Assembly: GCF_000797465.1 (NCBI RefSeq)
Contig: NZ_JSWG01000009.1
Span: 682,001-746,000 of the forward strand
DNA length: 64,000 nucleotides
Reading direction: 5' to 3'
From: Psychroserpens jangbogonensis
Lineage (GTDB): Bacteria > Bacteroidota > Bacteroidia > Flavobacteriales > Flavobacteriaceae
Below the pieces are notes generated by a model. It was not told where the DNA came from, made no database searches, and saw only the letters and a list, made by a program, of their open reading frames with translations. The translations under genes were made by a program, and so were the position numbers. Shown piece by piece: positions 2,784 to 31,631 of this stretch; within the stretch, counting starts at the first letter, position 1, and each line of letters begins with the position of its first letter.

Positions 2784-4025
2784 ATGTTATATTACCTATT
2801 TGAATATTTAGAACAACAGTTTCAGTTTCCTGGAGCAACACTCTTTGGGTTTCTAACATTTAGAGCTGCTATTGCAATGATTTTATCGTTGTTAATTTCT
2901 ATAGTATACGGGAAACGAATCATACGTTTTCTACAAAAACAACAAGTAGGTGAAACCATTAGAGATTTAGGATTAGAAGGGCAGGCTCAAAAGGCTGGCA
3001 CACCAACAATGGGAGGAGTAATTATCATCCTTGCCACCTTAATCCCTGTATTGTTATTAGCGAAACTAGAAAATGTATACATCATTTTACTGATAGTTAC
3101 TACACTTTGGATGGGAGTCATTGGTTTTATCGATGACTATATTAAGAAGTTTAAAAATGATAAAGATGGTCTGAAAGGGCGTTTTAAAGTTCTAGGTCAA
3201 ATTGGGTTAGGAATTATAGTTGGAGCGACATTATTTTTTCATAACGACGTAACTATTAAGGAAAAATTACCTGTAGAAGTACAACAAGAATTGCTAGCTG
3301 AAAACCCAAATATTTCACCTTTTAAGTTGTTTCAAGTTGAAGAGAAATCTACAAAAACAACAATTCCGTTTGTTAAAAACAACGAATTTAATTATTCAGA
3401 TTTAGTAACATGGATCAGTCCTGATCTTGAAAAATATGCTTGGTTGGTTTTTATTTTAGTTGTGATTTTTATCATTACTGCAGTCTCCAATGGAGCTAAT
3501 CTAACTGATGGGATTGATGGTTTAGCAGCTGGAACTTCAGCCATAATTGTACTCACGTTAGGGATTTTTGCTTGGGTTTCTGGTAATATCATTTTTTCAG
3601 ATTATCTCAACATTATGTATATCCCAAGAGTTGAAGAAATTACTATTTATATAGCAGCATTTGTTGGAGCGTTAATTGGGTTTCTGTGGTACAACACATA
3701 TCCAGCTCAAGTATTTATGGGTGACACAGGTAGTTTGACAATTGGTGGAATCATAGCAGTTATTGCAATTGCAGTTCGTAAAGAATGGCTAATTCCATTG
3801 TTATGTGGAATTTTCTTAGCAGAGAATTTATCTGTAGTCATGCAAGTAAGCTGGTTTAAATACACAAGGAAGAAACATGGTGAAGGACGACGCATATTTA
3901 AAATGTCGCCTTTACATCATCATTACCAAAAATCTGGATATCACGAAAGTAAAATAGTTACACGTTTTTGGATTGTAGGTATTCTATTAGCCATACTCTC
4001 AATTGTGACATTGAAAATACGATAA
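2784..4025 (+). CDS. mraY: Phospho-N-acetylmuramoyl-pentapeptide transferase
   Basis: Polytopic inner-membrane enzyme that transfers phospho-MurNAc-pentapeptide onto undecaprenyl phosphate to make lipid I. Key family motifs are present: the DDY-type acidic pair near residue 117 (FIDDY), NLTDGIDGL around Asp242, FMGDTGSL around Asp314, and the HHH segment near 378 (SPLHHHYQ). At 413 residues it is about 50 longer than the E. coli enzyme. The extra length is a polar insertion at about residues 155-212, between transmembrane segments; MraY proteins of Bacteroidota are commonly this long. It abuts murD with no spacer. Confidence 0.97.
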
Positions 4026-5357
4026 ATGAAAAGGTTAGTGATTCTTGGAGGTGGAGAAAGTGGTGTTGGAACAGCACTTTTAGGGAAAGACAGAGGTTAT
4101 GACGTATTTGTTTCAGACAAAGGAATAATTAAAGAAAAGTACAAAAAAGTTCTTTTACATAATGAGATTGAATTTGAAGAAGGTCAGCATACAGAAACTA
4201 AAATTCTGAACGCAGATTTAATCATGAAAAGCCCTGGAATTCCAGAGAAAGTTGCACTAGTAAAACAAGTTAGGGCAAATGGTATAAAGGTCGTTTCTGA
4301 AATTGAGTTTGCTTCAAAATATACTGAAGCTACTTTGATCGCAATTACTGGCAGTAATGGTAAAACAACAACTGCTAGTCTAACACATCATTTGCTTAAA
4401 CAAGAATTAGATGTTGGGTTGGCAGGTAATATTGGTGACAGTTTTGCTAAGCAAATATTGGAAAAAGATTTTCCAAACTATGTGCTTGAAGTCAGTAGTT
4501 TTCAGTTGGACGATATTATAGATTTTAAGCCTAAAATCGCGATTTTACTGAATATCACGCCAGACCATTTGGATCGATATGATTGCGTTTTCGAAAACTA
4601 TATCGCTTCAAAATTCAGAATTATAGACAATCAAACCAAAGAGGATTATTTCATTTATGATGCCGATGATGTAGTCATCGAATCTTGGTTAAAACAACAT
4701 TCTATTCAATCAACATTATTGCCATTTTCACTTACAAAACAAATTGAAAATGGCGCGTATTTGGACAAAGACAATATAAAAATAACAATAGATAACAATC
4801 AGATAATTATGCCAACAGCAAATTTAGCATTAGAGGGAAAACACAACATTAAAAATGCAATGGCTGCTTCAACAGTGGCTCACTTATTAAGAATAAGAAA
4901 GCAGACCATTCGTGAAAGTTTAGAGAATTTTCAAGGTGTTGAACATCGATTAGAGCATGTGCTTAAAATTAATAAAGTCCAATACATAAACGACTCAAAA
5001 GCGACAAATGTAAATGCTACCTACTATGCCTTAGAAAGTATGGATGCTCAAACAGTTTGGATCGTTGGAGGAGAAGATAAGGGCAACGATTATAATGAGT
5101 TGTTTCAGTTTGTAAACGAAAAGGTAAAAGCTATCATTTGTTTAGGAGTTGATAATGAAAAGCTCATGAATAGTTTTGGAAACATGGTAGATGTTATTGT
5201 TGAAACTCAATTCATGAGTGAAGCAGTAAAAATCGCCTATAAAATTGCAGATGCTGGAGAAAACGTTTTGTTGTCACCCGCTTGTGCAAGTTTTGATTTG
5301 TTTGAAAACTATGAAGATAGAGGTCGTCAGTTTAAAGACGCTGTAAGAAACTTATAA
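4026..5357 (+). CDS. murD: UDP-MurNAc-L-alanine:D-glutamate ligase
   Basis: Cytoplasmic Mur ligase that adds D-glutamate to UDP-MurNAc-L-Ala. The N-terminal Rossmann-type loop GGGESG (residues 8-13) binds the UDP substrate, and GSNGKTTT (109-116) is the ATP P-loop. The LNITPDHLDRY segment and the C-terminal SPACASFDLFENYEDRG segment are typical of MurD. The length of 443 residues is normal. The start codon directly follows the mraY stop, and ftsW follows after 11 bases. Confidence 0.97.
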   Translation: MKRLVILGGGESGVGTALLGKDRGYDVFVSDKGIIKEKYKKVLLHNEIEFEEGQHTETKILNADLIMKSPGIPEKVALVKQVRANGIKVVSEIEFASKYTEATLIAITGSNGKTTTASLTHHLLKQELDVGLAGNIGDSFAKQILEKDFPNYVLEVSSFQLDDIIDFKPKIAILLNITPDHLDRYDCVFENYIASKFRIIDNQTKEDYFIYDADDVVIESWLKQHSIQSTLLPFSLTKQIENGAYLDKDNIKITIDNNQIIMPTANLALEGKHNIKNAMAASTVAHLLRIRKQTIRESLENFQGVEHRLEHVLKINKVQYINDSKATNVNATYYALESMDAQTVWIVGGEDKGNDYNELFQFVNEKVKAIICLGVDNEKLMNSFGNMVDVIVETQFMSEAVKIAYKIADAGENVLLSPACASFDLFENYEDRGRQFKDAVRNL

Positions 5358-15107: not shown

Positions 15108-15704
15108 TTATAGTTTAAAAACTACTTGTAACATATATTGAAAGTGGTTGTTATCAAATTGTCTATCCTTTGCATGAACTGCAAATTTTCCAACACCTTG
15201 AAGTCTTATTCCAATATCATCAGAAACCCAAACAGTACCTCCAAGAGCTAAATTTCCAGAAGTGTTCACTTCGTCAATTGTGAAAATTCCAAATCCAGCA
15301 CCAACATAAAGATCTAACCAATCAACATTTAAAAGCACATCAGAGAAATAGTATTTAATATACGTATTAGTAGAAATATAAGTGTAATCTTCTTTTAAAA
15401 TTCCACCATCAATTTCTTCCCCTTTTTTATATCCATTAAAGGTTAAATCTTGTTCTAATGAAAAAGTCTTTGACCATCTATTTTCAATAGCTAAAGCTAA
15501 AGGGTTTCTAAATTGAAAGTCACCTAAACGTGAAAAAGGTTGTCTCTCTCCTAGGCTTCCAATAGCATTTACACCAACACTAAGTTTCCATGGATCCTGT
15601 ATTTCTTCTTCTGCAGTATCATATTTAGTATCAGAAGTCGTTTGTGATTGAGCATCAAAAGAAAATAATGACACTAAGAATAAAAATAATACTATATTTC
15701 TCAT
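15108..15704 (-). CDS. Small outer-membrane beta-barrel protein
   Basis: A protein of 198 residues with a clear signal peptide (MRNIVLFLFLVSLFSFDAQSQ). It continues as alternating hydrophobic and polar strands rich in Tyr, Trp and Gly, and ends on a phenylalanine-containing strand (QYMLQVVFKL). These are features of OmpA/OprF-like barrels of about eight strands. No specific ligand or function can be assigned. It has its own promoter (see 15725-15755). Confidence 0.75.
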   Translation of the reverse strand: MRNIVLFLFLVSLFSFDAQSQTTSDTKYDTAEEEIQDPWKLSVGVNAIGSLGERQPFSRLGDFQFRNPLALAIENRWSKTFSLEQDLTFNGYKKGEEIDGGILKEDYTYISTNTYIKYYFSDVLLNVDWLDLYVGAGFGIFTIDEVNTSGNLALGGTVWVSDDIGIRLQGVGKFAVHAKDRQFDNNHFQYMLQVVFKL

Positions 15705-15790: not shown

Positions 15791-16861
15791 TTAAGATTTT
15801 TTTAATCCTGAAAATCCAATTATTCTTTTATAATCTTTAAAAAGATCTTTTCTATATCTTTTATTATTAATAAAAGCCCATATTCTACTCGTGAACAAGG
15901 CCTTAATGAATTGAAAATTTCTTAAAACATAATCAATAAATTTTCTTAAAAATGGATGCTTTAGTTTTATTAAAAAGAGATTATTTATAAATGCATTAGA
16001 TTCAAAAGAATTCAAATCACTGAAGAAAAGTTTGGCGATTGAGAAATAGTTTTTAAAATAAGCTGGTTTAAATGTGTCGTCAAATTCTAAATTTGTTTTT
16101 CTTTTAAGGATAAGTAGATCATAAATAGATTTAAAACTTATTTTGCTATACATATATCCTGAATCATTTGCCTGGAAATTTAAAATTGAATGAAACAATA
16201 AATGCTTATCTGATGGTACGTAAATGTCTTGAACGGACTCTTTGGTGTCTAAAATTTTATTAGTGTTTAAAATGCCTTTATAAGTTTTTGATAACACTTT
16301 TTTATGAACTTCTACAGCTGCTAAATTTACATCAGATTGGAGTCTTGGTAAATGCTTGTGGTCAAAATACCTTGAGCTAATGCCTTGAGCTGTGCCGATA
16401 TAGTTGTTATCTATAAGTAATTGATATGTAGTCTCCATTTTAGTCTCATCAACAAGAATATCAATATCTCCTAACATTCTTTCGCCCAAATCCTCATAAT
16501 AATTCTTAACTAATAGTGCACTCCCTTTTAAAAACACATGATCAATCTTGTTTGTTCTTAAAATTTTTGAAATTTGACTAATCTCATCTTTTAAAGTTTC
16601 ATTTCTATTTCTATTAATGGTTGTAATTTCCTCTAGATATAATGCTAATTCTTCAGGTATATAAGCTAATAAATTCTTTTGTTTTAGCTTACAATAACAG
16701 GTTGTTAAAACTAGGTAATCACTAGCTATAAAAACAAATTTTTCCCAATCGATAGCATTAGAAGTCATCTTATATTGTAAGGCTTCAATTGAGTTTTCAA
16801 AGCCCAATATATCTGCAATTACTTGGAGAGTATATTTATATGAATTTTTTTGTACAGACAA
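15791..16861 (-). CDS. Nucleotidyltransferase-fold family protein (NTP_transf_5-like)
   Basis: A soluble protein of 356 residues. The segment HVFLKGSALL followed by MLGDIDILVDE carries the nucleotidyltransferase-fold signature: a Gly-Ser pair, then two acidic metal ligands, Asp132 and Asp134. This matches the uncharacterised nucleotidyltransferase family often found beside HPr-kinase-like genes in peptide-modification clusters. The surrounding sequence is helical and basic near the C-terminus. It is the last gene of a three-gene minus-strand operon, 36 bases after the kinase-like gene. Whether it transfers a nucleotide, a sugar or something else cannot be read from the sequence. The fold is a confident call; the role is inferred from context. 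Confidence 0.8.
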   Translation of the reverse strand: MSVQKNSYKYTLQVIADILGFENSIEALQYKMTSNAIDWEKFVFIASDYLVLTTCYCKLKQKNLLAYIPEELALYLEEITTINRNRNETLKDEISQISKILRTNKIDHVFLKGSALLVKNYYEDLGERMLGDIDILVDETKMETTYQLLIDNNYIGTAQGISSRYFDHKHLPRLQSDVNLAAVEVHKKVLSKTYKGILNTNKILDTKESVQDIYVPSDKHLLFHSILNFQANDSGYMYSKISFKSIYDLLILKRKTNLEFDDTFKPAYFKNYFSIAKLFFSDLNSFESNAFINNLFLIKLKHPFLRKFIDYVLRNFQFIKALFTSRIWAFINNKRYRKDLFKDYKRIIGFSGLKKS

Positions 16862-16897
16862 TAGTTCTTATTAAGTACTTAAAAGTAAGTAAAACTT

Positions 16898-18043
16898 TTA
16901 TGATTCTTCGAATAGGTCTTTAAATTTTGTAATTGCAAAGTCATTACTGTTGTAATTCAATTGGTAGCAATCAACTTCCTTAAACCAATTTATGAATTTT
17001 AAAGCATGTTTTTCTTTTGGTGATATCCAAGAATCTGGAATTAAAGTTTCTAGAATTTTTTCTGGAGAAACGAGATTTAAACTATCGCTCTTGGATGAAT
17101 CGTATTTGACATATACAATTTTTTTGCAAGGAAAGCTTGCGGGTTGACTTTCATAACTTAAAATCGGTGGTACATATTTAATATTTACTTTTTTTGGTCC
17201 ATTATGATGGGTTTTTAGTAAATCTATACCGTTGAGATATGGTTTTAAAGCTTCAAAAGCTCCTTTTTTAATTGATGTTGCTGCAGGATATCGATAGAGA
17301 TGCAGATTATCTTCATAAAGAGGGGTAAAGTCATCACTGAGGATGTCAAATCCATGAGCCATTAATAAAACGGAAAGTGTGCTTTTACCATTACCAGAAT
17401 CTCCAATAATCATAATTGACTCTTTACCGTTTGAAATAGTTGAGGCATGAAATGTTGCTACCCAGTTACTAATATTAGTGTCATGTATCGTGTTTGTAAG
17501 CTCTAAAGCAAATTTACCCTGAAGAAAATGGAAAGCTTTCGTCTTATAGCTTCCTACATGCACTCCATTTTTTAAGAGATGTAAATCATCATTTAATCTG
17601 AAAACATCGAATAATACATCGTATTCTACAGTGCTTTTTATTGAATGATGAGCAATTTGAGGATGAACTAAGCTTTTTATGATGTCAGACTCGAAACGTA
17701 TGCAAACCACTTTATCAATAAATTGATAATATTCTTCAATAAATGAAGTTGGTGCAACTTGAACTTTATTTGAAATTGTGTCAATATCAGTATCGATATT
17801 AACATCTTTCAAAAATCTCGATATATCATTAAACATCGTGTTTGCTTCGCTAGAGTTTAGATCAAAGTCTTTTGATAAATTATTAACAAATGAATCCCGA
17901 CTTTCGTCAGGATTCATATATAGTTTAATAAAATCACTATTTATTCTTGATGTAACAACGTATCTATTTGCTTTTTCAAACCAAAGTAAAACAGCATCTT
18001 CATCAATATCATGAATTAGCTTTGGAGACAGATTCGCTTTCAA
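16898..18043 (-). CDS. HPr kinase-related P-loop protein with PqqD-like N-terminus
   Basis: A protein of 381 residues. The Walker A motif GDSGNGKST is at 214-222. A DILSDDFTPLY segment follows at about 233-243, corresponding to the conserved acidic pair after the P-loop in HPr kinase/phosphorylase. The C-terminal HPrK hallmarks of true phosphotransferase-system regulators are not evident, and no HPr gene is nearby. The first 90 or so residues (RYVVTSRINSDFIKLY, then a small helical domain) resemble PqqD/RRE peptide-binding domains. By analogy with HprK-like enzymes of lasso-peptide clusters, it may phosphorylate a peptide. It starts 15 bases after the stop of the small peptide gene and is probably co-translated with it. 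Confidence 0.75.
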   Translation of the reverse strand: MKANLSPKLIHDIDEDAVLLWFEKANRYVVTSRINSDFIKLYMNPDESRDSFVNNLSKDFDLNSSEANTMFNDISRFLKDVNIDTDIDTISNKVQVAPTSFIEEYYQFIDKVVCIRFESDIIKSLVHPQIAHHSIKSTVEYDVLFDVFRLNDDLHLLKNGVHVGSYKTKAFHFLQGKFALELTNTIHDTNISNWVATFHASTISNGKESIMIIGDSGNGKSTLSVLLMAHGFDILSDDFTPLYEDNLHLYRYPAATSIKKGAFEALKPYLNGIDLLKTHHNGPKKVNIKYVPPILSYESQPASFPCKKIVYVKYDSSKSDSLNLVSPEKILETLIPDSWISPKEKHALKFINWFKEVDCYQLNYNSNDFAITKFKDLFEES

Positions 18044-18058
18044 ATTAATAAAATAGGA

Positions 18059-18220
18059 TTAATCGAAAGGGTTTCCTCCTGGATCAGGTGGAGAAGAAGC
18101 TTGCGCTTGTTTAGGGTTTAAAATAATGAACGTTCCTATAGCTGTTAAAGCAGCATATTTGCTCATTTTTGTAATAGCCTCCTTGCGAGTTATTTTATTT
18201 GGTGAGTTAAATTTTTTCAT
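18059..18220 (-). CDS. Small signal-peptide-like / candidate precursor peptide (53 aa)
   Basis: ATG at 18218-18220, stop at 18059-18061. The peptide has a basic N-terminal region (MKKFNSPNKITRKEA), a hydrophobic core (YAALTAIGTFIIL), and a QAQA motif typical of signal peptidase sites. A Pro/Gly/Ser-rich tail SSPPDPGGNPFD of only 12 residues follows. The ITRKEA stretch is weakly Tat-like. Such a length makes it either a very small exported peptide or a leader-core precursor whose tail is modified by the two downstream gene products. It is first in an operon with the HPrK-like and nucleotidyltransferase-like genes, 15 bases before the former. The reading frame is clear; the function is inference. 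Confidence 0.65.
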   Translation of the reverse strand: MKKFNSPNKITRKEAITKMSKYAALTAIGTFIILNPKQAQASSPPDPGGNPFD

Positions 18221-18234
18221 ACTATGTTAATGAT

Positions 18235-18284
18235 AAAGGTCAAAAATAATAAAATTATTTTAATGTCATTAATTTTTGACCTTT
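18235..18284 (-). terminator. Inverted repeat between the giant T9SS gene and the peptide operon
   Basis: AAAGGTCAAAAAT at 18235-18247 is exactly repeated in inverted form at 18272-18284, with a 24-base AT-rich loop. It begins 12 bases after the stop of the 3612-aa gene and ends 14 bases before the peptide ATG. It may therefore act as a terminator or attenuator, or as an operator. Confidence 0.4.
18241..18248 (-). promoter_or_regulatory. Possible -7 element of the small-peptide operon
   Basis: TATTTTTG on the minus strand matches TAnnTTTG and lies 20 bases before the peptide start codon. No TTTG is seen at the -33 position. The element overlaps one arm of the inverted repeat at 18235-18284. 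Confidence 0.35.
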
Positions 18285-18296
18285 AATTTTTAATAA

Positions 18297-21200
18297 TTAG
18301 TCTATTATAACTTTCTTAGTTCTTTCTTGATTACCATTTTGAATAGTAACAATATAAACACCAGAGTTAATACTTGATACATCTATACGGTTTTGTATAA
18401 GCGCATTATCAAGTTCAGTTCTTAATACTAATCTACCTTGAATATCATAAAGATTTAGCATTGTGTTGTCTATTAACTGACCATTAATTACAAGCTCATG
18501 AGAAGCTTTTAATGTAAAGATATCTAACTTATCAAGACTATTTTCTATAGTTGATAATGCATCTTCAGAAGTTCTCAAGAAGAAACGTCCAGTTCCAGAT
18601 AAATCTGTAGTTGGCGTGATAATATAATCGGAGTTATTTAATAGAGTTACTGTATTAGCAACCACATCTTCAAGATATACATTAACAGATGCTGGTAATG
18701 TACTTTCATCAATACTAAACGTTAATTGCTCTCCTTGGTTTGCATTTACTCCTAATGGAATAACTACATCTGAAAGGTTAGTTGAATTAACAGCTTGTAA
18801 TGCCATAGCCTTACCAGTGTTATCTTCGACTAAGTTAGAATAGATTGCAAAATCAGGAGTTGTATCACCCCAAATAGCAGCATCATATCCTAAATCGAAT
18901 CCAAGACTTGCTTCAGTATTAAAGTAAATTTCTGTACCGAATACATCATTAGCAGTACTAGCTTTTAATGCAACATAACTTAATTGAGGATTTCGACCTA
19001 CAATATAGTCATCTCCACTACCTGTAGAACGCATTGCAGAAGTAAACGTTAAATCATAACTACCAGTTAAAGCAGGATCAGCACTTACAAAGAATCCTTG
19101 TCCAGGAGCCATTACTGTTGAAGGAACTGTATTTGCTAAATTCTGGATAGTCCAACCATTAATAGCACTTCCGTCATATCCATAGATAGCAGCTGTTGAT
19201 TCATTTAATAACGTTAGGTTTTTCACACCAGCGTCTACAAAATGATTAAGGAAATCTCGAACTTTCATATAAGAAGGATAAGGATTACCCACTAAGTTCC
19301 ATTGTGGTTTAGGTCCAGAATATTGTATATCATGAAATTCGTTAGTATTAGAATCTGTTCCAGTAAATGTAACTGTAGAGCCACCAGGAATAGTTGTTCC
19401 TGATCTATATCCTACTCCAGGTTCAAGTGTTGCAGTTTCTGTACTAGCCCAATTTAGATAAGAACCAGTTACTTTTTCAAATGGTCCAAATAAGTATTGT
19501 GTACCATTATTTAAGATATTTGGATTAGCTAAAGCAAAATCACTAAATGCTTGACCATGTAATGGTGCAGACACTAAATCGTTACTTCCAGTTGTTCCAG
19601 AACCATTCTCATTTACATGACGCTCATAGTTCATTGTACCTACAATAGAACCATTACGTATTAAGCTTGAATAACTTGTAGAACTAGATTCTAATGTTAA
19701 ACCGTTAGTTGCTGTAAGTGTCATACTTGAATCAACAGTAAGACTTGCACCAGGGTTTACGGTCATAGTATTACATGTTGTATTAGCATTTATTACTGCA
19801 TCACCAGAGATAATCATAATGTCATCTGCAGCTGTAGCTGTACCATTTGGATCACTAGGAGACCAAGTGCCTCCGTCGTAAGTATAAGCTAAAGGAGCAA
19901 ATTCACTAATGGTAACCGAGTCAAATGCGGCACCTTCATCAGTACCAGAAAAGTCAGATCCAAAGGCAACACGTAATGATACATTACTTTGTCCTCCAAG
20001 ACCAGTTAAATCATTTCTAGCAAATAGCCATCCATTAGATCCACCACCATTTCTACCTGTCCAACCAATTTGTTGCCCTCCAGGGCCTCCTGTAATACTA
20101 GTATCGTTATACCAATTAATTCCATCAGAATCTGATCCAACATTTTGCCATGTAGCACCATCATCTATTGATGATTGTAATACCATACCGTCATAACTAT
20201 TCTCAGCTTCATACCAAATACTAAATTCAATAATAGGAGCAGTTAAGCTTGACATATCAAATGTAGGACTTGTTACTTCAGAATTATCACTATCTGAGTA
20301 ATTTCCATCTAAGTTAGTCACCCATGCATTAGCACCAGAATCTGCACTATTTATTATAGCATTTGCAGGTACACCTAATTCCCAAGAAGAACTACTTGCA
20401 ATCCAACCACCTGGGCCAGATTCAAAATCTTCAGTATAAGGGAAAGCTGTAACTGGAGGTAGAAGAGTTGAAAAAGCAACAGGTCCAACCCAGTTTCCAA
20501 AGCCAGGAACACCACAGTCTGATCTTACATATACTTCGTATGCAGTATTTGCAGTTAAACCACTATCAGTATGTGGATTAGTTGTAGTTGCTGTTCCAGC
20601 ACCTGTAGGAGCTGGATCACCAGCTGCTAGTATTGCTATTTCCCAAGCTGTTTCAATATCACCTAAATCCCAGCCAATGTCAGCTGATGTTGTAGTAACA
20701 TTTGAAACAACAATGTTTGATACAGGTTCACAACCTGGAATTTCTTCAACTGTAAAATTGTCAAAATAGATATAATAACCATCTGATCCAGCTGCAGGTA
20801 CATGCATAGCTATATATACATCTCCTGTATATGCACTTAAGTCGAGTTCTACTTCAACATGTACATTAGTTGGAATTATTACAGCTTGTAATTCAGTTGA
20901 GAAATCAGCTGCTGCTGTTCCAGTAGTTGATAAAACAACTCTATAGTTGTCATCTTCAGAAGATGATCTATTTCTTACACTAAATTTCAATCGTTCATTT
21001 CCAGTTAATGTCATATGTGGTAAAATCAGATAATCATCATTATCTCCACCATTAAAATCAGTATACAATCCAGCTGCATTAGAACCACCGACACCATAAG
21101 TTGTCCATGTTTTAAAGAAATCAAAATCGGCATTCTCATTTAATTCAGACCAGCAATCTGCTAGGTCAGGAGTTGTAATGCTCTCAAAATCTTCAGTCCA

Positions 21201-24200
21201 AGGGAAAGCAGTGATAGTGTCACAAGCTGTTGTAAATGAATAAGCTGTAGACCAATCACTAAATCCGTTAGCACCACAATTTGCTCTAACATACACCTCG
21301 TAAGCTGTATTAGAAGTTAAGCCACTTTCAGTATGTGGATTATTTGTCGTTGCTGTTCCAGCACCTGTAGGAGCTGCTCCGCCATCAAGTTGTACTACAA
21401 TTTCCCAAGCTGCTTCTGAAGAACCAGCTATCCAGCTAATATCAGCTGATGTAGTTGTTGTTGAATCAACCGTTAAATCAGTAACAGCAGGACATATAAC
21501 TGTAGTTGTAAAAGATCCACCAGGAATCCATGTACCTAAAGGACCACCACAATCTGCTCTTACCCAAACTTCGTAAGCCGTTTCAGGTGTTAAACCTATT
21601 TCTGTATGTGGATTATTTGTTGTTGCTGTGCCAGCAGAAGCAGGAATTCCTGTTCCATCTGCTTGTACTTTAACTTCCCAAGCCAATTCTCCACCTGCAG
21701 GATCCCAACTAACATCTACGGTTTCACCATCGAAACTGTCAATAGATACAACTGAAACATCACCACATAAAGGAATTGTTCTTACTCTAAATTTACCAAC
21801 ATGGAAATCATAATCTTCTGAATCATCTGCAGTTCCTTCAGAACCCCAAATTGCAAATTGTACGTCACCTGAGTAAGCTGTTAAATCTGCTATATATTCT
21901 GTACCAGAAGCGTCAGGTTCGTTAGCAGCATTCCAAGTTGTAATATTAACCCAAGTTGTACCACCATCTATACTTCTTAATAGTTGCACTTCGTCATCAG
22001 AACCCATAGTTGCGCTTGATGTACTATTACCTGAAGTAGTCCAAGCAGTGATAGCCACATTAAGTTCTAATTGGAAAGGACCACCAGTTAAATTAAACGT
22101 TGGTGATAATAACCATTCTCTTTTAGAACTAGCATATAAATTAATAGCATTAGAAGGTATACCAAAATAAGATCTACCGCCTCTCCAGAGCGAACCTCCT
22201 AGACCAGTAGGACCAGTGGCAACTTCACCATCAGCAGCTTCATCCCAACATGCATCAGGTACATTAGTAGTCATATCTGCAAGATATTCTGGTACGAGAG
22301 GCGCACAAGGTGTTGTAAAAGAACCAGCATTTACCCAGTTGCTATATCCATTGGATGCAAAGGTACAATCTGCTCTTACCCAAACTTCGTAATCGAATTG
22401 TTCAGTTAAGCCACTTTCAGTATGTGGATTATTTGTCGTTGCTGTTCCAGCACCAGTAGGAGCTACTCCGCCATCTGCTTGTACTACAATTTCCCAAGCT
22501 GTTTCAGATCCACCAGCTGTCCAACTCACAGTAACTGAATCATCAGTTACACTGTCAAAGTTAAAGCCTGTCATTTCAGGACATAACTCTGTTGTTGTAA
22601 AGTCATAAGGTCCAAACCAATCACTATATGTGCTTGATCCACAATCTGCTCTTACATATACTTCGTAAGCTGTAGTCGCAGATAAACCAGTTTTACTATA
22701 TGGATTAGTTGTTACTTCACCAGTACCTGGTGCAGTAGCAGGAAATGCTCCGCCATCTTCTTGTACTACAATTTCCCAAGATGATTCAGGTCCGTTTGCA
22801 GTCCAAGCTATATCAGCTGTAGTTCCTGTTACGTTTGATGCTACAATTGCAGATGGGTCAATACAATAAGCACCACAAGCTTCAACTGTCATCAAATCGA
22901 TAGACATGTCTCCTGTTGCAGTACCTAAACCAGTATGACTAAACTCTATATAAATAGTTTGACCTTGGTAAGCAGATAAATCTACACCTACAGGTACCCA
23001 AGCATCAGTTTCATCTAATTGTAATTCTCCTGTCCAAGTAAACTCATTGGCAAATGGACCAGCAGCAGAGTTAGAGACACCTACATTAAGTGTACCCATT
23101 CCTGCTCCATAAGCATGCATATAGAATGCTAGTTCAATAGCATCGCCAAAAGCAGCTGGAGTTAAGTCAATTGCAGGACTTACTGCAGAAGCAGTTGTAG
23201 CTGTTCCAGAAGATTCATAATACATATAGTTAGAACCACTAGAAGCAGCACTTGGTCCAGTATTACCTGAAGTTGTTCCTCCAGTTTCAGGGAACACCCA
23301 TAAACCATTTGAACTAGTAGTTGATAGATTTCCTGTCCAACCTGTAGCTAAATAATCATCAAATTCTTCGGTAAAAATAATAGAAGAAGTAGCAACTGTA
23401 CATGTTACACCAACTGGTCCGTTAGGAGGAGTTGCAGGTGTAGTGAAACTCACTGGGCTACTCCATAAGCTTAAATCAGAACCATCACCAGCACAGTCTG
23501 CTCTTACGTATACATCGTAAAGTGTTAATTCAGCTAAACCTAAATCCGTGTATGGATTAGTTGTTATATCTGTTCCTGTATTATCAGCTGCGCCAGGAGC
23601 TGTACTAGGAGCTGCTAATACTGCTATTTCCCAATCGGTTTCAGTTCCACCTGCAGTCCAGTCAATATCGGCTGAAGTTGAAGTGAGATTTGAAACAACA
23701 ATGTTTGATACAGCTTCACAAGAAGGTATCGCTTCCCAAATCATATCATCTAAATACACATAAGTATAAGTAGATGTTGATAATCTTTTGATAGCAATAT
23801 ATGTGTCTGATCCAGAATAACCTGCAAAAGATACTTCGTATGCCGTATGTGTTGTGCTTAAATCTACAGCGCTTAATAGCGTAAATGTAGAACCATCAGT
23901 AGGATCAGAAAGAGTACCTACTTCAATGTCTTGACTTGCAGTTGAGTTTCTAGCTGAAAAACGAAGTCTATGCGTACCATCACCTAAATTAGTTAAATTA
24001 GGTGAAACAAGCATAATATTCGCTAATGAACCAGAATCTGAATTATATAAACTCACTCCATTTGGAGCCGTATTATCTGCAGAAGTACTAGTTTCAACAT
24101 ATGCAAAACTTGAAGCTCCTTCAACAATACCTGACCAGCAATCTGGTAAGTTTGGTGTAGTCGCAGAATCAAAATTCTCAGAAAAATCTGATATAGCATC

Positions 24201-27200
24201 ACAAGCAGTTGTGAATGAGCCACCAATTATCCAAGCACCTAAATCTCCACCACCACAATCAGATCTCACATACACTTCGTAAGCGGTATTAGACATTAAG
24301 CCTATTTCAGTATGTAGTATGTTATTTGCTGTTATTGTACCAGTTCCTGGTGTAACAGCCGGAAGTCCTCCTCCAAATGCTTGTACTTCAACTTCCCAAG
24401 AAATTTCAGTATCACCTGGAGCCCAGCTAAATGTTGCAGTATCAGTATCAAAGCTATCGATAGTTATTGCGCTAACATCTAGACAAGCTGGAATTGCTTC
24501 AACTACAAAATTGTCAAAATAAATATCCCAACCATCTACTGTAGTAGTAGAAGGCACATGTATAGCGATATACACATTTCCAGTATAAGCACTTAAGTCA
24601 ATAGGTGCTATTTCAGTAGGTGTATCATTTCCTACTTGGTCTAAAGCTCTTAATTCAGTTGAGAAGTCAACTGCAGCTGTTCCTGTACTTGATAAAACAA
24701 CTCGATACTCGTTTGGTTCATCAGCTCTATCTCTTACACTAAATTTCAATCGCTCGTTCCCAGTTAATGTGAACTGTGGTAAAATTAAATAATCATCATT
24801 ACCCCCAGCACCATTAAAATCAGTATATAAATTAGCTGCATTAGAGTCACCGACACCAAAACCATTTTCAGTCACAAAGAAATCACCATCAGCATTCTCA
24901 TTTAATTCAGACCAACAGCTTGGTAGGGCAGGAGTTGTGATACTTTCAAAATCTTCAGTCCAAGGAAAAGAACTGATAGTAGCACAAGCAGTTGTAAATG
25001 TATATACTGTAGACCAATCAGAGAACGTACTTGCTCCACAATCTGCTCTAACATACACATCGTATGCTGTATTTTCAGTTAAACTAGATGCACTATATGG
25101 ATTAGTTGTAGTTGCACCAAAAGTAGGTTCTGGATCACCAGCAGGTACTACTGCTACTTCCCAAGACGTTTCTGTTCCATTTGCAGTCCATGCAATATCT
25201 GCTGTAGTTGTAGCAATGTTAGATGCTACTGTAGCAGTTGGATCAATACAAAAAGAACCACAAGCTGTAACTGTCATTAAATCAATAGACATATCTCCTA
25301 AAAATCCAGCGATTCCAGTGTGGCTAAATTCTATATAAATTATTGAACCCATATATGAATCTAAATTGACACCTACTGGTACCCAAGCTTCTAATTCAGT
25401 TGTTTGCCAATCACCTGACCATGTGAATTCTGGCGTAAATGGTCCAGTTGGAGAAGTACTAACTCCTACAACTAAATCACCTATTTCTGCTCCATAAGCA
25501 TGCATAAAGAATGCTAGTTCTGCACCATCAATAGCAGTTGTCAAGTCAATTGCAGGACTTACAGCAGAAGCAGTAATTCCAACTCCACTAGAAGCTTCAA
25601 AGTTCATATAACTAGTGTCTGAACCACTATGCGCGACATCAGGTCCTGTATCTGCTGAACCAGCACCACCAGTTCCAAATTCCCAAGCACCACCTGTGTT
25701 AGAAGTTGTAACGTCTCCAGTCCAATCAGCAATGGTCTCAAAATCTTCAGTAAAAACAGTTGTTGAGCCACCTGATGTACATGTTACACCAATTGGTGCT
25801 GGTGGAGGACAATCGTCATAATTAAAAGTTCCTATAACAGTAGAACAAGCACCATCAAAATCAAAAAGTGAAATTTCACCAGAACTTTCTCCAGTATTAA
25901 AAGGACCTGCTATGTTTGTACCCACTATTAAGGTAGGTGATTCCGCTCCCCAAACAAAGGCAAAACTAGTGCCAGTATTAGATACTACTACTTCAACAGA
26001 ATACTCTCCATTAGCACAATCCTCTACTACAGTTGTACTAGTTACTGTTGCAGGTGTACAAGCTACAAATATAATTTCTATATCAAAATCTAAGGTAACA
26101 CCTAATGTAGTTGAGTTACAAGGATCAAGAGAATTTGCAAGATCAGTATCTGTAACGATTCTCATTTTGTGAATGCCTAAAAAAGCCGGATCACCAGGCA
26201 TAGTAAAAGAAGCATCAAATACTTCTCCAGTGGTACCACCAGCAGAAGGACCACTAAACACTAATTCTCCTTCATTATCGTCTAAAATTAAATTGTCATC
26301 TAAGTCAATCCATATAGCTACATTTTGAACTGTAGTGGTTTCAATAGTTAATTGAACATTTGCTAATACACCTTGTCCTAAAGGATCTGGAGTTCCTCCA
26401 GAGTGATCGATATAAAATACATCACCACTAGCATAATTTGTAAGGCCTACTTTTGTATTAGAGATTCCTAAACCACTATTAGAAGTAGGTTCTGAAATAC
26501 ATATACATCCTGTTGCAAATGTTGAATAAGTACCTTCAGTACATGTTGCATTTTGGCCTATAGCATTTTCAGGAGTAATAGTATAGAAATATGTTGTATT
26601 AGGAGTTTGAGCAGTCACTGTATATAAAGTAACATCACCTATATTTGAGAAAGGAACAACATCGCTTCCACCAGAAGTAGTTCCTACTTTGATATAATAA
26701 TTAGTTGCACTAACAGAAGCATCCCACGTAATAGTAGTATCATAAGTACCACAAACAGCATCTGGAGTTGCCAAAACATTTGCAGGGCAATCAGGTATTA
26801 CTGTTGCAAGCGTTGTAAAGGGAACTGGACCACTCCATTCGCCAGGATTAACACCACAAAGAGATCTTACATATACATCATAGTCTGTAAATCCAGTTAA
26901 TCCTGAGAAAGTATAAGGATTAGTTGTTGTAGATGTTCCGGTAGTTGGTTCTGGGTCACCAGCAGGTATTACTGCTACTTCCCATTCACTTTCTGAACCA
27001 TCCTCTGTCCAACTAACATCTACGCTTACACCATCGAAACTATCAATAGTTACTCCGCTAATATCTGGACATAAAGGAATTGTTCTTACTCTAAATTTAC
27101 CAACATGGAAATCATAATCTGAACCAGTTGCAGATCCATCTGAAGCCCAAATTGCAAATTGTATATTACCTGAGTAAGCTGTTAAATCTGCTATATATTC

Positions 27201-29135
27201 TGTACCTGTAAAAACAGGTTCGTTAGTATTATTCCAAGTTGTAATATTATCCCAAGTTGTACCACCATCTGTACTTCTTAATAGTTGCACTTCGTCATCA
27301 GCTCCCATTCCATCATTGTCGGCTTCAAATCCATTATTGTATTGAGTAACAGCTACATTTACTTCAAGTTGGAAAGGACCACCAGTTAAATCAAACGTTG
27401 GTGATAATAACCATTCTCTTCTTGAACTTGTGTAAAGATTAACTTTGTTAGAATTTCCAACACCATAAGAGCCTGTTCCCCAGAGCGAACCTCCTAGTCC
27501 AGTAGGACCAGTAGCAACTTCGCCATCAGCGGCTTCATCCCAACAAGAATCAGGTACGTTAGTTGTGAAATTTGCTATATAGTTTGGTGTAATTGCCGAA
27601 CAAGATGTTGTAAATAATTCAGGTCCTACCCACTCACCTAAATCTGTATTATTAGTACATTCTGCTCTTACCCAAACTTCATAACCTAATTGTTCAGTTA
27701 AAGAGTTTTTAGTAAAAGTAGGCGTTGTTAGTACATTTGTACCAGTCCCGTTAATTGTGCTAGGATCACCTGCTCCTACGGCTTGTACTAGAACTTCCCA
27801 TGCTGCCTCTGCAGATGGACTTTCTGTCCAGCTAAATGTAACTGATGAATCTGTAAAACTATCAATTGATAATCCTGTAACCTCAAGGCATGAAGCGCTT
27901 TTAGCTATAGAAAGATCATATGTTGTTGTTTGTGGACTAGCCCAAGTAGAAACAACTATATAATAGGTCTCACCGTTTAAAGTTGGAAAGGATGAAATAC
28001 CTCTATCTGAAGTATCAGAGCTAAAAGCTCCAGCTGTTGCACAAACTGTGCCAATATCAGCACAATTATTATAAATAAATACACCTGTATAAGTATCAGT
28101 AATATTAGTTAAATCAATATCAATATTACCATCTTCATCAGATGTATACGCATACACTATATCATCTCCAAGTAAATACCCACTAGTAGTACCGCAACCA
28201 GTAGAACCTGGTGATCCATCATAATCGTCAAAAAATCCAGCGGTAGTTTCAGCTAAAGCTGTATAAGGTAAGGTGCCAACAAGTATAGGGTCCTCACAGA
28301 CACTTCCTGCTGGTGGAGCCGCTATAGTTGTAAATGATTGCTCAATACAACCTGTAGCATCACCGTTAGCATTATATGGTGTAATAGTTATATAGTACGG
28401 AGTACTATATGCTAATCCCGCAGGAGTATAAGATGTTGTATTACTTAAATCAACATTGTTAGCAATATCAGTTCCTCCCATACTAGAACCCATTGTGATT
28501 TTATAACCAGTTGCAAGTCCTGTTGCAGCACTCCAAGTAACATCTCCAGATATAGAGAAATCAGTTGTTGCAGATGTTAAAGTAGAATCACAATTTGGTG
28601 GTAACACAGTAACTTGAGTAGCAGAAAAATTATCAATATAAAAATAATAATCTCCACCAACCCTAGTGTTACTTACTCTGAATTTAAGGTCTGAACTAGC
28701 TGGTACAGCTGCTCCAAGAATGGTTACACTAAACGTTTCACAAACGTTTGAGTTACTATCATTAGAATCGTCAATTGTACCTGCTGTGATCCAATTGGAT
28801 CCATCGTCAGTTGAATATTCCAAGTCTGCAGTTCCCCATCCATCAGGTGCAGGAGTAGTGATAGGAGAATATTCTACTACTTTATAATCTATAGAGAATG
28901 TAATATCAGTACCATTAGATACTGCTACTTGATTGCTAGTAGTCAGGTCACCAGTTGGTGTACTAGACCAAATGTTAACTCTTTCTGACGAACCATCACA
29001 AGCTCCTGTTGTTGTGTTAGTATACGAATCAGTCCAGCCAGCTGGAGTTCCTGAGTCGAAGTTTTTATCAATAGCTACTTGAGAAAGTAACGTTGATGTT
29101 GTTAGTAGAAAAATCAGTAATGTAAATTTTTTCAT
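18297..29135 (-). CDS. Giant T9SS-secreted multidomain adhesin-like protein (3612 aa)
   Basis: I place the start at 29135 (MKKFTLLIFLLTTSTLLSQ, a clear signal peptide), not at the ATG 60 bases upstream. The body alternates about a dozen fibronectin type III-like domains (recurring 'YEVYVRADCG' and 'W..GPVSFTT' patterns) with about nine jelly-roll 'choice-of-anchor'/MAM-like domains (recurring 'EDFES.TTP.LP.CWSE'). A PPC-like domain lies near residues 275-410, and a GEVED-like domain (AIWIDLDDNLILDDNEGELV) near 880-1025. Residues from about 3083 form the module shared with the three downstream paralogues. The last 80 or so (LNLYDIQGRLVLRTELDN to KKVIID) are a type A T9SS sorting domain. It is predicted to be exported and displayed or released at the cell surface. 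Several domains are near-identical in DNA, so copy number may be mis-assembled. Confidence 0.92.
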   Translation of the reverse strand: MKKFTLLIFLLTTSTLLSQVAIDKNFDSGTPAGWTDSYTNTTTGACDGSSERVNIWSSTPTGDLTTSNQVAVSNGTDITFSIDYKVVEYSPITTPAPDGWGTADLEYSTDDGSNWITAGTIDDSNDSNSNVCETFSVTILGAAVPASSDLKFRVSNTRVGGDYYFYIDNFSATQVTVLPPNCDSTLTSATTDFSISGDVTWSAATGLATGYKITMGSSMGGTDIANNVDLSNTTSYTPAGLAYSTPYYITITPYNANGDATGCIEQSFTTIAAPPAGSVCEDPILVGTLPYTALAETTAGFFDDYDGSPGSTGCGTTSGYLLGDDIVYAYTSDEDGNIDIDLTNITDTYTGVFIYNNCADIGTVCATAGAFSSDTSDRGISSFPTLNGETYYIVVSTWASPQTTTYDLSIAKSASCLEVTGLSIDSFTDSSVTFSWTESPSAEAAWEVLVQAVGAGDPSTINGTGTNVLTTPTFTKNSLTEQLGYEVWVRAECTNNTDLGEWVGPELFTTSCSAITPNYIANFTTNVPDSCWDEAADGEVATGPTGLGGSLWGTGSYGVGNSNKVNLYTSSRREWLLSPTFDLTGGPFQLEVNVAVTQYNNGFEADNDGMGADDEVQLLRSTDGGTTWDNITTWNNTNEPVFTGTEYIADLTAYSGNIQFAIWASDGSATGSDYDFHVGKFRVRTIPLCPDISGVTIDSFDGVSVDVSWTEDGSESEWEVAVIPAGDPEPTTGTSTTTNPYTFSGLTGFTDYDVYVRSLCGVNPGEWSGPVPFTTLATVIPDCPANVLATPDAVCGTYDTTITWDASVSATNYYIKVGTTSGGSDVVPFSNIGDVTLYTVTAQTPNTTYFYTITPENAIGQNATCTEGTYSTFATGCICISEPTSNSGLGISNTKVGLTNYASGDVFYIDHSGGTPDPLGQGVLANVQLTIETTTVQNVAIWIDLDDNLILDDNEGELVFSGPSAGGTTGEVFDASFTMPGDPAFLGIHKMRIVTDTDLANSLDPCNSTTLGVTLDFDIEIIFVACTPATVTSTTVVEDCANGEYSVEVVVSNTGTSFAFVWGAESPTLIVGTNIAGPFNTGESSGEISLFDFDGACSTVIGTFNYDDCPPPAPIGVTCTSGGSTTVFTEDFETIADWTGDVTTSNTGGAWEFGTGGAGSADTGPDVAHSGSDTSYMNFEASSGVGITASAVSPAIDLTTAIDGAELAFFMHAYGAEIGDLVVGVSTSPTGPFTPEFTWSGDWQTTELEAWVPVGVNLDSYMGSIIYIEFSHTGIAGFLGDMSIDLMTVTACGSFCIDPTATVASNIATTTADIAWTANGTETSWEVAVVPAGDPEPTFGATTTNPYSASSLTENTAYDVYVRADCGASTFSDWSTVYTFTTACATISSFPWTEDFESITTPALPSCWSELNENADGDFFVTENGFGVGDSNAANLYTDFNGAGGNDDYLILPQFTLTGNERLKFSVRDRADEPNEYRVVLSSTGTAAVDFSTELRALDQVGNDTPTEIAPIDLSAYTGNVYIAIHVPSTTTVDGWDIYFDNFVVEAIPACLDVSAITIDSFDTDTATFSWAPGDTEISWEVEVQAFGGGLPAVTPGTGTITANNILHTEIGLMSNTAYEVYVRSDCGGGDLGAWIIGGSFTTACDAISDFSENFDSATTPNLPDCWSGIVEGASSFAYVETSTSADNTAPNGVSLYNSDSGSLANIMLVSPNLTNLGDGTHRLRFSARNSTASQDIEVGTLSDPTDGSTFTLLSAVDLSTTHTAYEVSFAGYSGSDTYIAIKRLSTSTYTYVYLDDMIWEAIPSCEAVSNIVVSNLTSTSADIDWTAGGTETDWEIAVLAAPSTAPGAADNTGTDITTNPYTDLGLAELTLYDVYVRADCAGDGSDLSLWSSPVSFTTPATPPNGPVGVTCTVATSSIIFTEEFDDYLATGWTGNLSTTSSNGLWVFPETGGTTSGNTGPSAASSGSNYMYYESSGTATTASAVSPAIDLTPAAFGDAIELAFYMHAYGAGMGTLNVGVSNSAAGPFANEFTWTGELQLDETDAWVPVGVDLSAYQGQTIYIEFSHTGLGTATGDMSIDLMTVEACGAYCIDPSAIVASNVTGTTADIAWTANGPESSWEIVVQEDGGAFPATAPGTGEVTTNPYSKTGLSATTAYEVYVRADCGSSTYSDWFGPYDFTTTELCPEMTGFNFDSVTDDSVTVSWTAGGSETAWEIVVQADGGVAPTGAGTATTNNPHTESGLTEQFDYEVWVRADCTFASNGYSNWVNAGSFTTPCAPLVPEYLADMTTNVPDACWDEAADGEVATGPTGLGGSLWRGGRSYFGIPSNAINLYASSKREWLLSPTFNLTGGPFQLELNVAITAWTTSGNSTSSATMGSDDEVQLLRSIDGGTTWVNITTWNAANEPDASGTEYIADLTAYSGDVQFAIWGSEGTADDSEDYDFHVGKFRVRTIPLCGDVSVVSIDSFDGETVDVSWDPAGGELAWEVKVQADGTGIPASAGTATTNNPHTEIGLTPETAYEVWVRADCGGPLGTWIPGGSFTTTVICPAVTDLTVDSTTTTSADISWIAGSSEAAWEIVVQLDGGAAPTGAGTATTNNPHTESGLTSNTAYEVYVRANCGANGFSDWSTAYSFTTACDTITAFPWTEDFESITTPDLADCWSELNENADFDFFKTWTTYGVGGSNAAGLYTDFNGGDNDDYLILPHMTLTGNERLKFSVRNRSSSEDDNYRVVLSTTGTAAADFSTELQAVIIPTNVHVEVELDLSAYTGDVYIAMHVPAAGSDGYYIYFDNFTVEEIPGCEPVSNIVVSNVTTTSADIGWDLGDIETAWEIAILAAGDPAPTGAGTATTTNPHTDSGLTANTAYEVYVRSDCGVPGFGNWVGPVAFSTLLPPVTAFPYTEDFESGPGGWIASSSSWELGVPANAIINSADSGANAWVTNLDGNYSDSDNSEVTSPTFDMSSLTAPIIEFSIWYEAENSYDGMVLQSSIDDGATWQNVGSDSDGINWYNDTSITGGPGGQQIGWTGRNGGGSNGWLFARNDLTGLGGQSNVSLRVAFGSDFSGTDEGAAFDSVTISEFAPLAYTYDGGTWSPSDPNGTATAADDIMIISGDAVINANTTCNTMTVNPGASLTVDSSMTLTATNGLTLESSSTSYSSLIRNGSIVGTMNYERHVNENGSGTTGSNDLVSAPLHGQAFSDFALANPNILNNGTQYLFGPFEKVTGSYLNWASTETATLEPGVGYRSGTTIPGGSTVTFTGTDSNTNEFHDIQYSGPKPQWNLVGNPYPSYMKVRDFLNHFVDAGVKNLTLLNESTAAIYGYDGSAINGWTIQNLANTVPSTVMAPGQGFFVSADPALTGSYDLTFTSAMRSTGSGDDYIVGRNPQLSYVALKASTANDVFGTEIYFNTEASLGFDLGYDAAIWGDTTPDFAIYSNLVEDNTGKAMALQAVNSTNLSDVVIPLGVNANQGEQLTFSIDESTLPASVNVYLEDVVANTVTLLNNSDYIITPTTDLSGTGRFFLRTSEDALSTIENSLDKLDIFTLKASHELVINGQLIDNTMLNLYDIQGRLVLRTELDNALIQNRIDVSSINSGVYIVTIQNGNQERTKKVIID

Positions 29136-29262
29136 AATTAATTTAGTTATAGTTAATAGCTTAGTATATGCAAGAATGCAATAATAACAAAACATAGGAT
29201 TTCCGGTAAGTTTGGGAGAGATTTAACAAATAGATGAATAAAATCTAAGTTAAATCGGAAAA

Positions 29263-29444: not shown

Positions 29445-31631
29445 TTATTTAATAATCACTTTTTTGGTGAGTTCTTGACTGTTATTTTGAACAGTAACCA
29501 TGTAAACACCAGTATTTAAATTAGACACATCAATACGGTTTTGAATCAATGTGCTATCAAGTTTAGTTGATACTACTTTTCTACCTTGAATATCGTAAAG
29601 GTTTAATACAGTATTTTCTTGTAATTGTCCACTTACTACTAATTCTTTAGAGGTATGTAGCGCGAAAATATTTAAAGTATCAAGACTATTTTCAATAGTT
29701 GATAATGCATCTTCAGAAGTTCTCAAGAAGAAACGTCCAGTTCCAGACAAATCTGTAGTTGGAGTAATCACATAATCTGAGTTATTTAGCAATGTTGTTG
29801 TGTTAGCAACAGTATCTTCTAAATACACACTAACTGAAGCTGGTAACGTTGAATCTGCAATACTAAACGTTAATTGCTCACCTTGATTTGCATTTACTCC
29901 TAATGGTATGGTAACCTCACTAACATCTAAAGAGTTTAAAGATTGAATTGCTAGTTCTGATCCAGTATTATCTTCAACAAGATGCGAGTACACAGCAAAA
30001 CTTGGAGCAATACCACCCCAAACACCAGCATCATATCCAGCATCAAGACCTAATGATGCATTAGTATTGAAATAAAAATCAGTTTTGTAGTTTTTTGAAC
30101 CACTGCTTAGTTGAAGCATCAGATACACAAGTTCTGCATTTCTAAAAGGTATAAAGTCACCAGATATTCCAGTTCTTCTCATGTTTGAAGTGAATTCAAT
30201 ATTACCACTACTTTCAGCAGCAACAAAAAATCCTTGACCAGGAGCTATAACCAATGAGCTAGTTGAGTTTGCTAAATTGTAAATTATCCAACCATCAGAT
30301 GCATCACCATCATAGCCATAAACACCAACATTCGTTTCGTCTAATAAAGTTCCATTTGCAGTGTTGTTTAAGAAATCTTCAACATTAATGTAAGATGGAT
30401 ATGGATTACCAATAAGGTTCCATTCAGCAAAAGAAGGACCAGAATTTGAAATAGTTGCAGTCTCAGTTCCAGCAGAAATGGTTCCTGTAAAGGTTAGGTT
30501 CAATCCAAGGATATCATCAGTAGCTGCTCTATACCCTGTTGCGCTAGTAAGCGTCGCAGATGTTGCATCAGTATAGTTTTCGAAATCACCAGTAGTTTTA
30601 TCAAACGGGCCAAATGCATATTCAGTTGGAGCAATATTGCCGTCATCTAAAAGTGCAGTAGAATTAATAGGGTCTAAGAAACTTGCCCATGTTTGCCCAG
30701 ATAAAGGTGAAGATACTAAATCATTTCCATTTGAATTTGAATTTACAAATCGGCTATAGGTAGCAGTTCCACTTCCACTACTAGTATTTGGTATTACACT
30801 TGGGTAGTCTGTACTTGTTGATGTTAAGTTTAAAGTTCCAGAATTATTTAAGTTTCCAGAAACAGTTACGTTACTGTTTGATGGAATATTTAATGTACTT
30901 CCACTTTGGATATCTAAATAAGGTACAGTCATATCTCCAGAAGAACTAATAGTGCTGTTCTCTGTAATTGTGTATTTACTTTGGATAGCTAAATTGTCAA
31001 TTCCAAAATTCGCACCAGTACCTTGGTTTGTTGATTGAAACTTAAAGCCGTTTATATGTGAAAGATCATTAGGAGATGTTGAAATACTAGAATTACCTCC
31101 AGTTCCAAAAGTATAACCATATGACCCATCTTCATTATAAGTATATGTAAATGTAATACTAGCAAAATCATCATAATTTTGACCACTACCGAAATCAGAA
31201 CCTCCGTCATTTAATTCCCATTCACTAGAACCACCTACAAATTTTAGTGTAATAACAGGAGCGCCATCATCTAATAATTGAATAAATACCTCGCCATTTA
31301 TGGTGGATGAATGGCCAAGGTCTACACTAAATTTATCACCTTTTTTTAATTCAGAATTGAAGTTACGTGTTGCACTAGCATAATTCCCAGATCCATCTGA
31401 CCACATGGCAAAGCTAGGATCCCCTTGTCCGCTAGTACCTCTGTAATGACCTGCACTACCATTAGATGTAAGTACCCATGGTGCAAACCCAGTACCTTGA
31501 TTGTCTCCATTATTCCAAGATCCGTAATTTCCGGTGTCATCATCACCTACTGAAAAAACATCAGTACCTAATTGTGCTTGTGCGCTATAAGAGAGTAAAA
31601 TAGAAATGAGTAGAACGTATAAATTCTTCAT
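29445..31631 (-). CDS. T9SS type A sorting domain protein (728 aa)
   Basis: Signal peptide MKNLYVLLISILLSYSAQAQ is followed by a unique N-terminal domain of about 190 residues (WNNGDNQGTGFAPWVL ... FGIDNLAIQS), with the look of a glycine- and aspartate-rich beta-sandwich. From about residue 215 it carries a divergent version of the family's shared module: TLNIPSNSNVTVSGNLNNSG, then FGPFDKTTGDFENY, EWNLIGNPYPSYI, and ATGYRAA. The C-terminal sorting domain starts near 645 and ends in KKVIIK. Near-identity of its last 200 codons with those of the giant gene suggests recent duplication or gene conversion. Export by the T9SS is expected; the ligand or substrate is unknown. Confidence 0.88.
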   Translation of the reverse strand: MKNLYVLLISILLSYSAQAQLGTDVFSVGDDDTGNYGSWNNGDNQGTGFAPWVLTSNGSAGHYRGTSGQGDPSFAMWSDGSGNYASATRNFNSELKKGDKFSVDLGHSSTINGEVFIQLLDDGAPVITLKFVGGSSEWELNDGGSDFGSGQNYDDFASITFTYTYNEDGSYGYTFGTGGNSSISTSPNDLSHINGFKFQSTNQGTGANFGIDNLAIQSKYTITENSTISSSGDMTVPYLDIQSGSTLNIPSNSNVTVSGNLNNSGTLNLTSTSTDYPSVIPNTSSGSGTATYSRFVNSNSNGNDLVSSPLSGQTWASFLDPINSTALLDDGNIAPTEYAFGPFDKTTGDFENYTDATSATLTSATGYRAATDDILGLNLTFTGTISAGTETATISNSGPSFAEWNLIGNPYPSYINVEDFLNNTANGTLLDETNVGVYGYDGDASDGWIIYNLANSTSSLVIAPGQGFFVAAESSGNIEFTSNMRRTGISGDFIPFRNAELVYLMLQLSSGSKNYKTDFYFNTNASLGLDAGYDAGVWGGIAPSFAVYSHLVEDNTGSELAIQSLNSLDVSEVTIPLGVNANQGEQLTFSIADSTLPASVSVYLEDTVANTTTLLNNSDYVITPTTDLSGTGRFFLRTSEDALSTIENSLDTLNIFALHTSKELVVSGQLQENTVLNLYDIQGRKVVSTKLDSTLIQNRIDVSNLNTGVYMVTVQNNSQELTKKVIIK

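Follow-up and report, generated by a model that had tools for sequence, protein, structure and literature searches.

Lasso-peptide kinases carry a His-Lys-Asp-Asp motif that is conserved and essential, and in the pseudomycoidin pathway the kinase PsmK phosphorylates a Ser to which PsmN, a nucleotidyltransferase-like protein, then adds hexose(s) (PMC9266682). The gene sets for paeninodin (PadeK/ThcoK) and pseudomycoidin share with the locus analysed here an HprK-like kinase with this motif, an annotated nucleotidyltransferase alongside it and a short precursor in which one Ser is invariant. Unlike these lasso sets, our locus has no B2 protein or adjacent cyclase; its Ser is placed near the start of the core, its leader looks like an export signal, and its peptides are paired with cargos of the T9SS.

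In that secretion system PorU cuts off the CTDs and couples the cargo to an amine; in mutants of P. gingivalis without A-LPS it links cargos to peptides, preferring those with small first residues (PMC4560394). The natural linking sugars bear Ser, Gly or Ala, and linking groups differ between species (PMC11969387). The cargos at our locus resemble type A (Por_Secre_tail, PorV, PorU and the A-LPS linking sugar) in scoring above the Por_Secre_tail cut-off, and the type A linking sugar, which carries an amino acid whose amine joins the cargo, together with the acceptance of peptides by PorU, can be compared with the peptide described below. They differ from type A in three ways: their CTDs are without the PNP motif, a further module precedes the CTD, and a peptide of their own, probably modified, accompanies them. 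As in T9SS type B, with its adjacent PorP/SprF shuttle genes, a cargo subclass has a genetically linked downstream partner; whereas the type B partner is a β-barrel shuttle, here it is a short, apparently exported peptide with two enzymes that look cytoplasmic. No published description of such a system of peptide, kinase, nucleotidyltransferase and cargo was found in the literature searched.

Organization of the locus

The window, by which we mean the whole stretch of DNA analysed, comprises 64,000 nt of Psychroserpens jangbogonensis (GCF_000797465.1, contig NZ_JSWG01000009.1, positions 682,001–746,000). It contains genes for a precursor peptide (PEP), a kinase-like protein (K) and a nucleotidyltransferase-like protein (NT), separated by 15 and then 36 bases (Table 1). 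The initial annotation had placed three close minus-strand genes here, and its coordinates are exact. It had also read them as an operon of three: the genes and their order are real, but the unit is incomplete, as the T9SS cargo gene upstream belongs to it too. The giant protein encoded there contains fibronectin III repeats and MAM-like, GEVED and Por_Secre_tail domains. Four cargos with the same C-terminal module follow one another on the minus strand (18297–39879), with PEP behind the last one only.

Table 1. Features of the locus, in positions of the window.
Feature	Position	Strand	Remarks
Outer-membrane β-barrel-like protein	15108–15704	minus	198 aa, after NT
NT (nucleotidyltransferase-like)	15791–16861	minus	356 aa, TTG start
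K (kinase-like)	16898–18043	minus	381 aa, TTG start
PEP (precursor peptide)	18059–18220	minus	53 aa, ATG start
Cargo–PEP spacer	18235–18284	minus	perfect 13-base inverted repeat, 18272–18284 and 18235–18247
Giant T9SS cargo/adhesin	18297–29195	minus	up to 3632 aa, directly upstream of PEP
Cargo C-terminal module, then PNP-less CTD	18549–18866	minus	marks PEP-linked cargos
Second T9SS cargo, same module	29445–31631	minus	module match ~29697–30008
Third T9SS cargo, same module	31832–34000	minus	module matches ~32087–32398 and ~33419–33727
Fourth T9SS cargo, same module	34189–39879	minus	module match ~34441–34749

The β-barrel gene is kept behind NT in about half of the lineages; we therefore rejected it as a core part and regard it as optional. 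In the spacer between cargo and PEP the inverted repeat overlaps a promoter-like −7 motif, TAnnTTTG (18241–18248), which we take to resemble the Bacteroidota promoter consensus. This motif precedes PEP in many relatives, and the hairpin is limited to the closest species.

Co-occurrence, dispersal and co-loss

The initial annotation had proposed a search for conserved co-occurrence of the three genes, and such co-occurrence is what we found. Among 397 genomes of the family, K and PEP are both present in 35, K only in one, PEP only in five and neither in 356 (K total 36, excluding one match to the P-loop only; PEP total 40), as Fisher-type counts that ignore shared ancestry. Exactly one copy of NT is present in each of 24 K-positive genomes, and there is no NT match in two further drafts (G147, G450) in which K is only a contig-end fragment. 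Within the genus, 20 of 22 other genomes carry K; elsewhere in the family it is scattered among genera, and in the phylum sample full-length K is confined to this family. PEP was also found in two further families of the same order, once as cargo–PEP–NT on a single contig (L237).

PEP lies just upstream and NT just downstream of K in nearly all neighbourhoods fetched, across many genera; L099 has the order cargo–PEP–NT–K. Where K has no adjacent PEP (L096, L109, L114, L115) the genome keeps PEP elsewhere, and in three small drafts (G403, G229, G076) K, NT and PEP are all retained, on different contigs or far apart. The idea that PEP is an upstream ORF regulating K was rejected on the ground that PEP copies exist far from K. 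In two small drafts (L096, L114) K is beside a conserved nucleotidyltransferase-like gene (MVLLxMAAGSGSRYGKLKQFD), with NT and PEP elsewhere in the genome.

NT is also absent from the five PEP-positive genomes that lack K, and in three of these five PEP is damaged: it is truncated ahead of the core in G374, frameshifted in G394 and, in G362, without a start codon from which the complete leader could be read, Tyr also replacing Ser43. PEP is intact in the remaining two, both of them incomplete drafts. Because PEP decays and Ser43 is lost where K and NT are absent, we read PEP, and Ser43 in particular, as the substrate of K and NT.

The T9SS cargo partner

At 64 of 72 PEP copies an ORF with a T9SS CTD lies upstream in the same orientation and ends less than 700 bp away; several of the eight copies without an upstream cargo are at contig ends or degraded. 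The window's genome has 104 Por_Secre_tail matches in 3.6 Mb, so chance placement of a cargo before PEP should be rare. In G399 every one of the six PEPs follows a cargo and none adjoins the genome's single K; G276 and G335 have two cargo–PEP pairs each. The PEP copies are dispersed beside cargos while the genome keeps one K and one NT. The initial annotation had considered a stand-alone peptide-modification system; this no longer holds, as the genes are linked to one subclass of T9SS cargo both by these 64 copies and by the tracking of a cargo module.

The window cargo scores 41.3 bits against Por_Secre_tail (PF18962, cut-off 27) at its C-terminus. PEP-linked cargos have about 200 C-terminal residues in common, made up of the module (signature ALYSHLVExN...IPLGxxA...VYLEDxxxNT...GTGRFFL) and a CTD without PNP. 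None of 58 PEP-linked CTDs begins with the PNP motif. In a sample of 40 CTDs drawn from four of these genomes 37 have it, and the three exceptions are of the module type. The module has no convincing match in Pfam or NCBIfam. With a threshold of E 1e-15, 43 of the 397 genomes have it, 38 with K or PEP and five without, and three genomes with K or PEP have no module. Weaker relatives of the module are widespread, and in G201 and G414, which have neither K nor PEP, it is followed by a canonical PNP CTD; these two observations soften the view that the module is found only in K-positive genomes. With at least 12 module cargos to three PEP copies in the window's genome the cargos outnumber the peptides, and one peptide gene would therefore have to serve several cargos.

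The precursor peptide

PEP has no fitting family in Pfam or NCBIfam. It is a real protein under strong purifying selection, with a median dN/dS of 0.076 and a maximum of 0.20 (84 usable species pairs from 16 species of the genus), well below the value of 1 named in the initial annotation as evidence against a conserved small ORF. In the window the leader/signal reads MKKFNSPNKITRKEAITKMSKYAALTAIGTFIILNPKQAQA and the mature part SSPPDPGGNPFD, with predicted cleavage at AQA|SS. The conserved half has a basic start, [TS]-R-K-[ED]-A, some 13 hydrophobic residues and then NPKKAQA; given this signal-peptide architecture it is probably an enzyme-recognition leader as well as an export signal.

The mature part usually has ~8–20 residues and mostly starts with a small residue; Gln comes first in 18 copies. 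The core is almost unchanging within the genus. Its C-termini are NPFD, GF, GW and similar, and near its start stands the invariant Ser43, kept in 67 of 68 copies with the damaged PEP of G362 as the sole exception. Long-tailed variants extend beyond the core in L093, L094 and L106, for example with PGKPHKPGKPYKPGKP repeats.

In the signal, R-K occurs in 66 of 70 copies and R-N in three; a classical R-R was not seen. Replacement of R-R by R-K, together with lysines before the cleavage site, is a Tat-like trait. All 14 genomes examined encode TatC, and PEP did not match the NCBIfam Tat-signal models. We judge Tat to be the export route of PEP with evenly balanced confidence; it would suit the export of an already modified peptide.

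The kinase and the nucleotidyltransferase

Residues 196–377 of K align to HprK-related kinase A (NCBIfam TIGR04352, E 3.8e-15; 55.7 bits, below the curated cut-off of 200), in agreement with the P-loop kinase-like protein of the initial annotation. The scores against HPr kinase/phosphorylase are 19.4 bits for PF07475 (cut-off 33.3) and 19.4 for TIGR00679 (cut-off 240). These matches are to the P-loop region only, and we rejected a plain HPr kinase serving the phosphotransferase system on this ground. H199, K220, D237 and D238 are invariant in 53 of 53 sequences and correspond to the His-Lys-Asp-Asp residues of the lasso kinases.

Residues ~1–95 of K may form a PqqD/RRE-like domain. The PqqD-like N-terminus proposed earlier is weakly supported: a profile–profile comparison (hhalign) aligns 66 columns in register (P 4e-4, with a probability of only 35%), and Pfam gave no PqqD match among 18 relatives. 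A single-sequence structure prediction of K is unreliable (pLDDT 33). PqqD-type and NTP_transf_5 genes are separate neighbours in L217, a related member of the order; in K, by contrast, the possibly PqqD-like N-terminal domain is fused to the kinase. L217, from another family of the order, has adjoining separate PqqD-like and NTP_transf_5 genes (1233–2662) and an HprK-like match on the same contig; it is possible that this set is an unfused cousin of the PEP/K/NT system. In G062 (L095, 9220–10364) a frameshift divides K, which is intact in the sister genome G342; this indicates either a pseudogene or a sequencing error.

NT, which had been assigned a nucleotidyltransferase fold, matches Pfam NTP_transf_5 (PF14907) with E 2.5e-33 and 116 bits, above the cut-off of 31.2. 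Its motif KG...D132-x-D134...E184 is invariant in 48 of 48 sequences. A sequence search with NT returned no relative of solved structure. No signal sequence is seen in the alignment, and both enzymes look cytoplasmic.

Proposed mechanism and alternatives

Co-function of the cargo class, PEP, K and NT is well supported. Beyond this, we propose a four-part system with the following mechanism, a complete reading that we hold at somewhat less than even confidence. In the cytoplasm K would recognize the conserved PEP leader, probably by means of the PqqD-like domain at its own N-terminus, and use ATP to phosphorylate the invariant Ser43, a step that we consider probable. NT would then put a nucleotidyl or sugar group onto the phosphoserine; that NT decorates PEP is slightly favoured. 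Tailoring enzymes acting on a precursor peptide had been envisaged in the initial annotation, and their families and intact catalytic residues are in keeping with this, except that the likely site is Ser43 and not the C-terminus. The modified PEP would be exported by its Tat-like signal (R-K motif, lysines before AxA) and cleaved after AQA, leaving a short mature peptide with, in most cases, a small first residue and then the modified serine. Outside the inner membrane this peptide may act with the T9SS cargos that bear the module and a PNP-less CTD. Its free N-terminal amine could accept these cargos from the PorU sortase or form a component of their anchor. This acceptor role is the mode of action that we favour, tentatively and at well below even confidence; the 18 copies that start with Gln, less ideal for PorU, count against it. 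Equally speculative is the wider idea that a ribosomally made linker, modified on one serine by phosphate and then a nucleotidyl or glycosyl group, serves as sortase acceptor or anchor in place of the LPS-borne linking sugar.

The main rival, with a smaller but real chance, is that the modified peptide is a secreted partner, a shuttle adaptor or a chaperone that binds the cargo non-covalently, with the phospho or nucleotidyl group setting its location or binding. The tight adjacency of cargo and PEP resembles the cargo–shuttle gene pairs of type B (PMC12618676, PMC10202324), and the long tails of PEP in L093, L094 and L106 fit binding better than a sortase nucleophile, but the mature peptide is usually very short for such a partner and is less numerous than the cargos. 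We think it rather improbable that PEP works as a diffusible signal or antimicrobial of the RiPP type for which the cargo is a receptor or merely co-regulated. Its leader–core build, the tailoring enzymes and Ser43 would all agree with that, yet no recurrent transporter, protease or immunity gene was seen in the neighbourhoods, the module cargo class tracks the system, and the core is near-constant within the genus where diversification would be expected.

K and NT could instead modify the cargo or another envelope component, with PEP as a regulator or adaptor that the N-terminal domain of K could bind; co-occurrence of K, NT and module cargos suits this as well. The cargos, however, leave the cytoplasm unfolded as Sec substrates (PMC10202324), whereas both enzymes look cytoplasmic, and the decay of PEP with loss of Ser43 in genomes without K and NT points to PEP as the substrate, which makes this arrangement unlikely. 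Inheritance of one locus by shared ancestry, with no functional link to the cargo, would account for the synteny within the genus and for Fisher counts that ignore kinship; it becomes very improbable in the face of separate loci per genome that each pair PEP with a cargo, dispersed parts that are co-retained in small genomes, and co-loss accompanied by decay. A lasso-peptide system or its remnant is close to negligible. K and NT do resemble lasso tailoring enzymes, but the core has no C-terminal Ser of the kind that lasso kinases modify, no cyclase-like neighbour was noticed in the 19-kb neighbourhoods, and the lasso B2 family (PF13471) was found in 0 of 21 K-positive genomes. Since B2 is missing there we reject a lasso identity, and the initial annotation was right to set the genes apart from lasso clusters for want of an adjacent B protein or cyclase.

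To return to the four-part reading, co-inheritance of PEP, K and NT with one class of giant surface proteins suggests an undescribed peptide-based step in the processing or anchoring of T9SS proteins. For cargo anchoring beyond a few oral pathogens, it points to a compact set of genes inherited along with one subclass of cargo. With such a step, tailoring by lasso-type kinases and nucleotidyltransferases would be extended beyond lasso peptides, and an export signal would be seen to serve also as an enzyme-recognition leader.

Variant cargo–PEP loci

Some loci have mini-cargos just upstream of PEP that look as if the body of the cargo had been deleted. In two of them a signal peptide is joined to the last strand of the CTD (L163, 8663–8894; L169, 10949–11081), and in L158 (11238–11418) the remnant is a 60-residue CTD fragment. 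In two genera, genes ending in YWSSTE...VRAVRAF, judged by eye to be Lcl_C/DUF1566-like, surround PEP or separate it from the cargo (L157, 2326–4714; L163, 7739–9956). L163 also contains five near-identical tandem ORFs for small GIY-YIG-like endonucleases (MPFCYIIYSPQIDSYYTGSC...) at 3079–5000.
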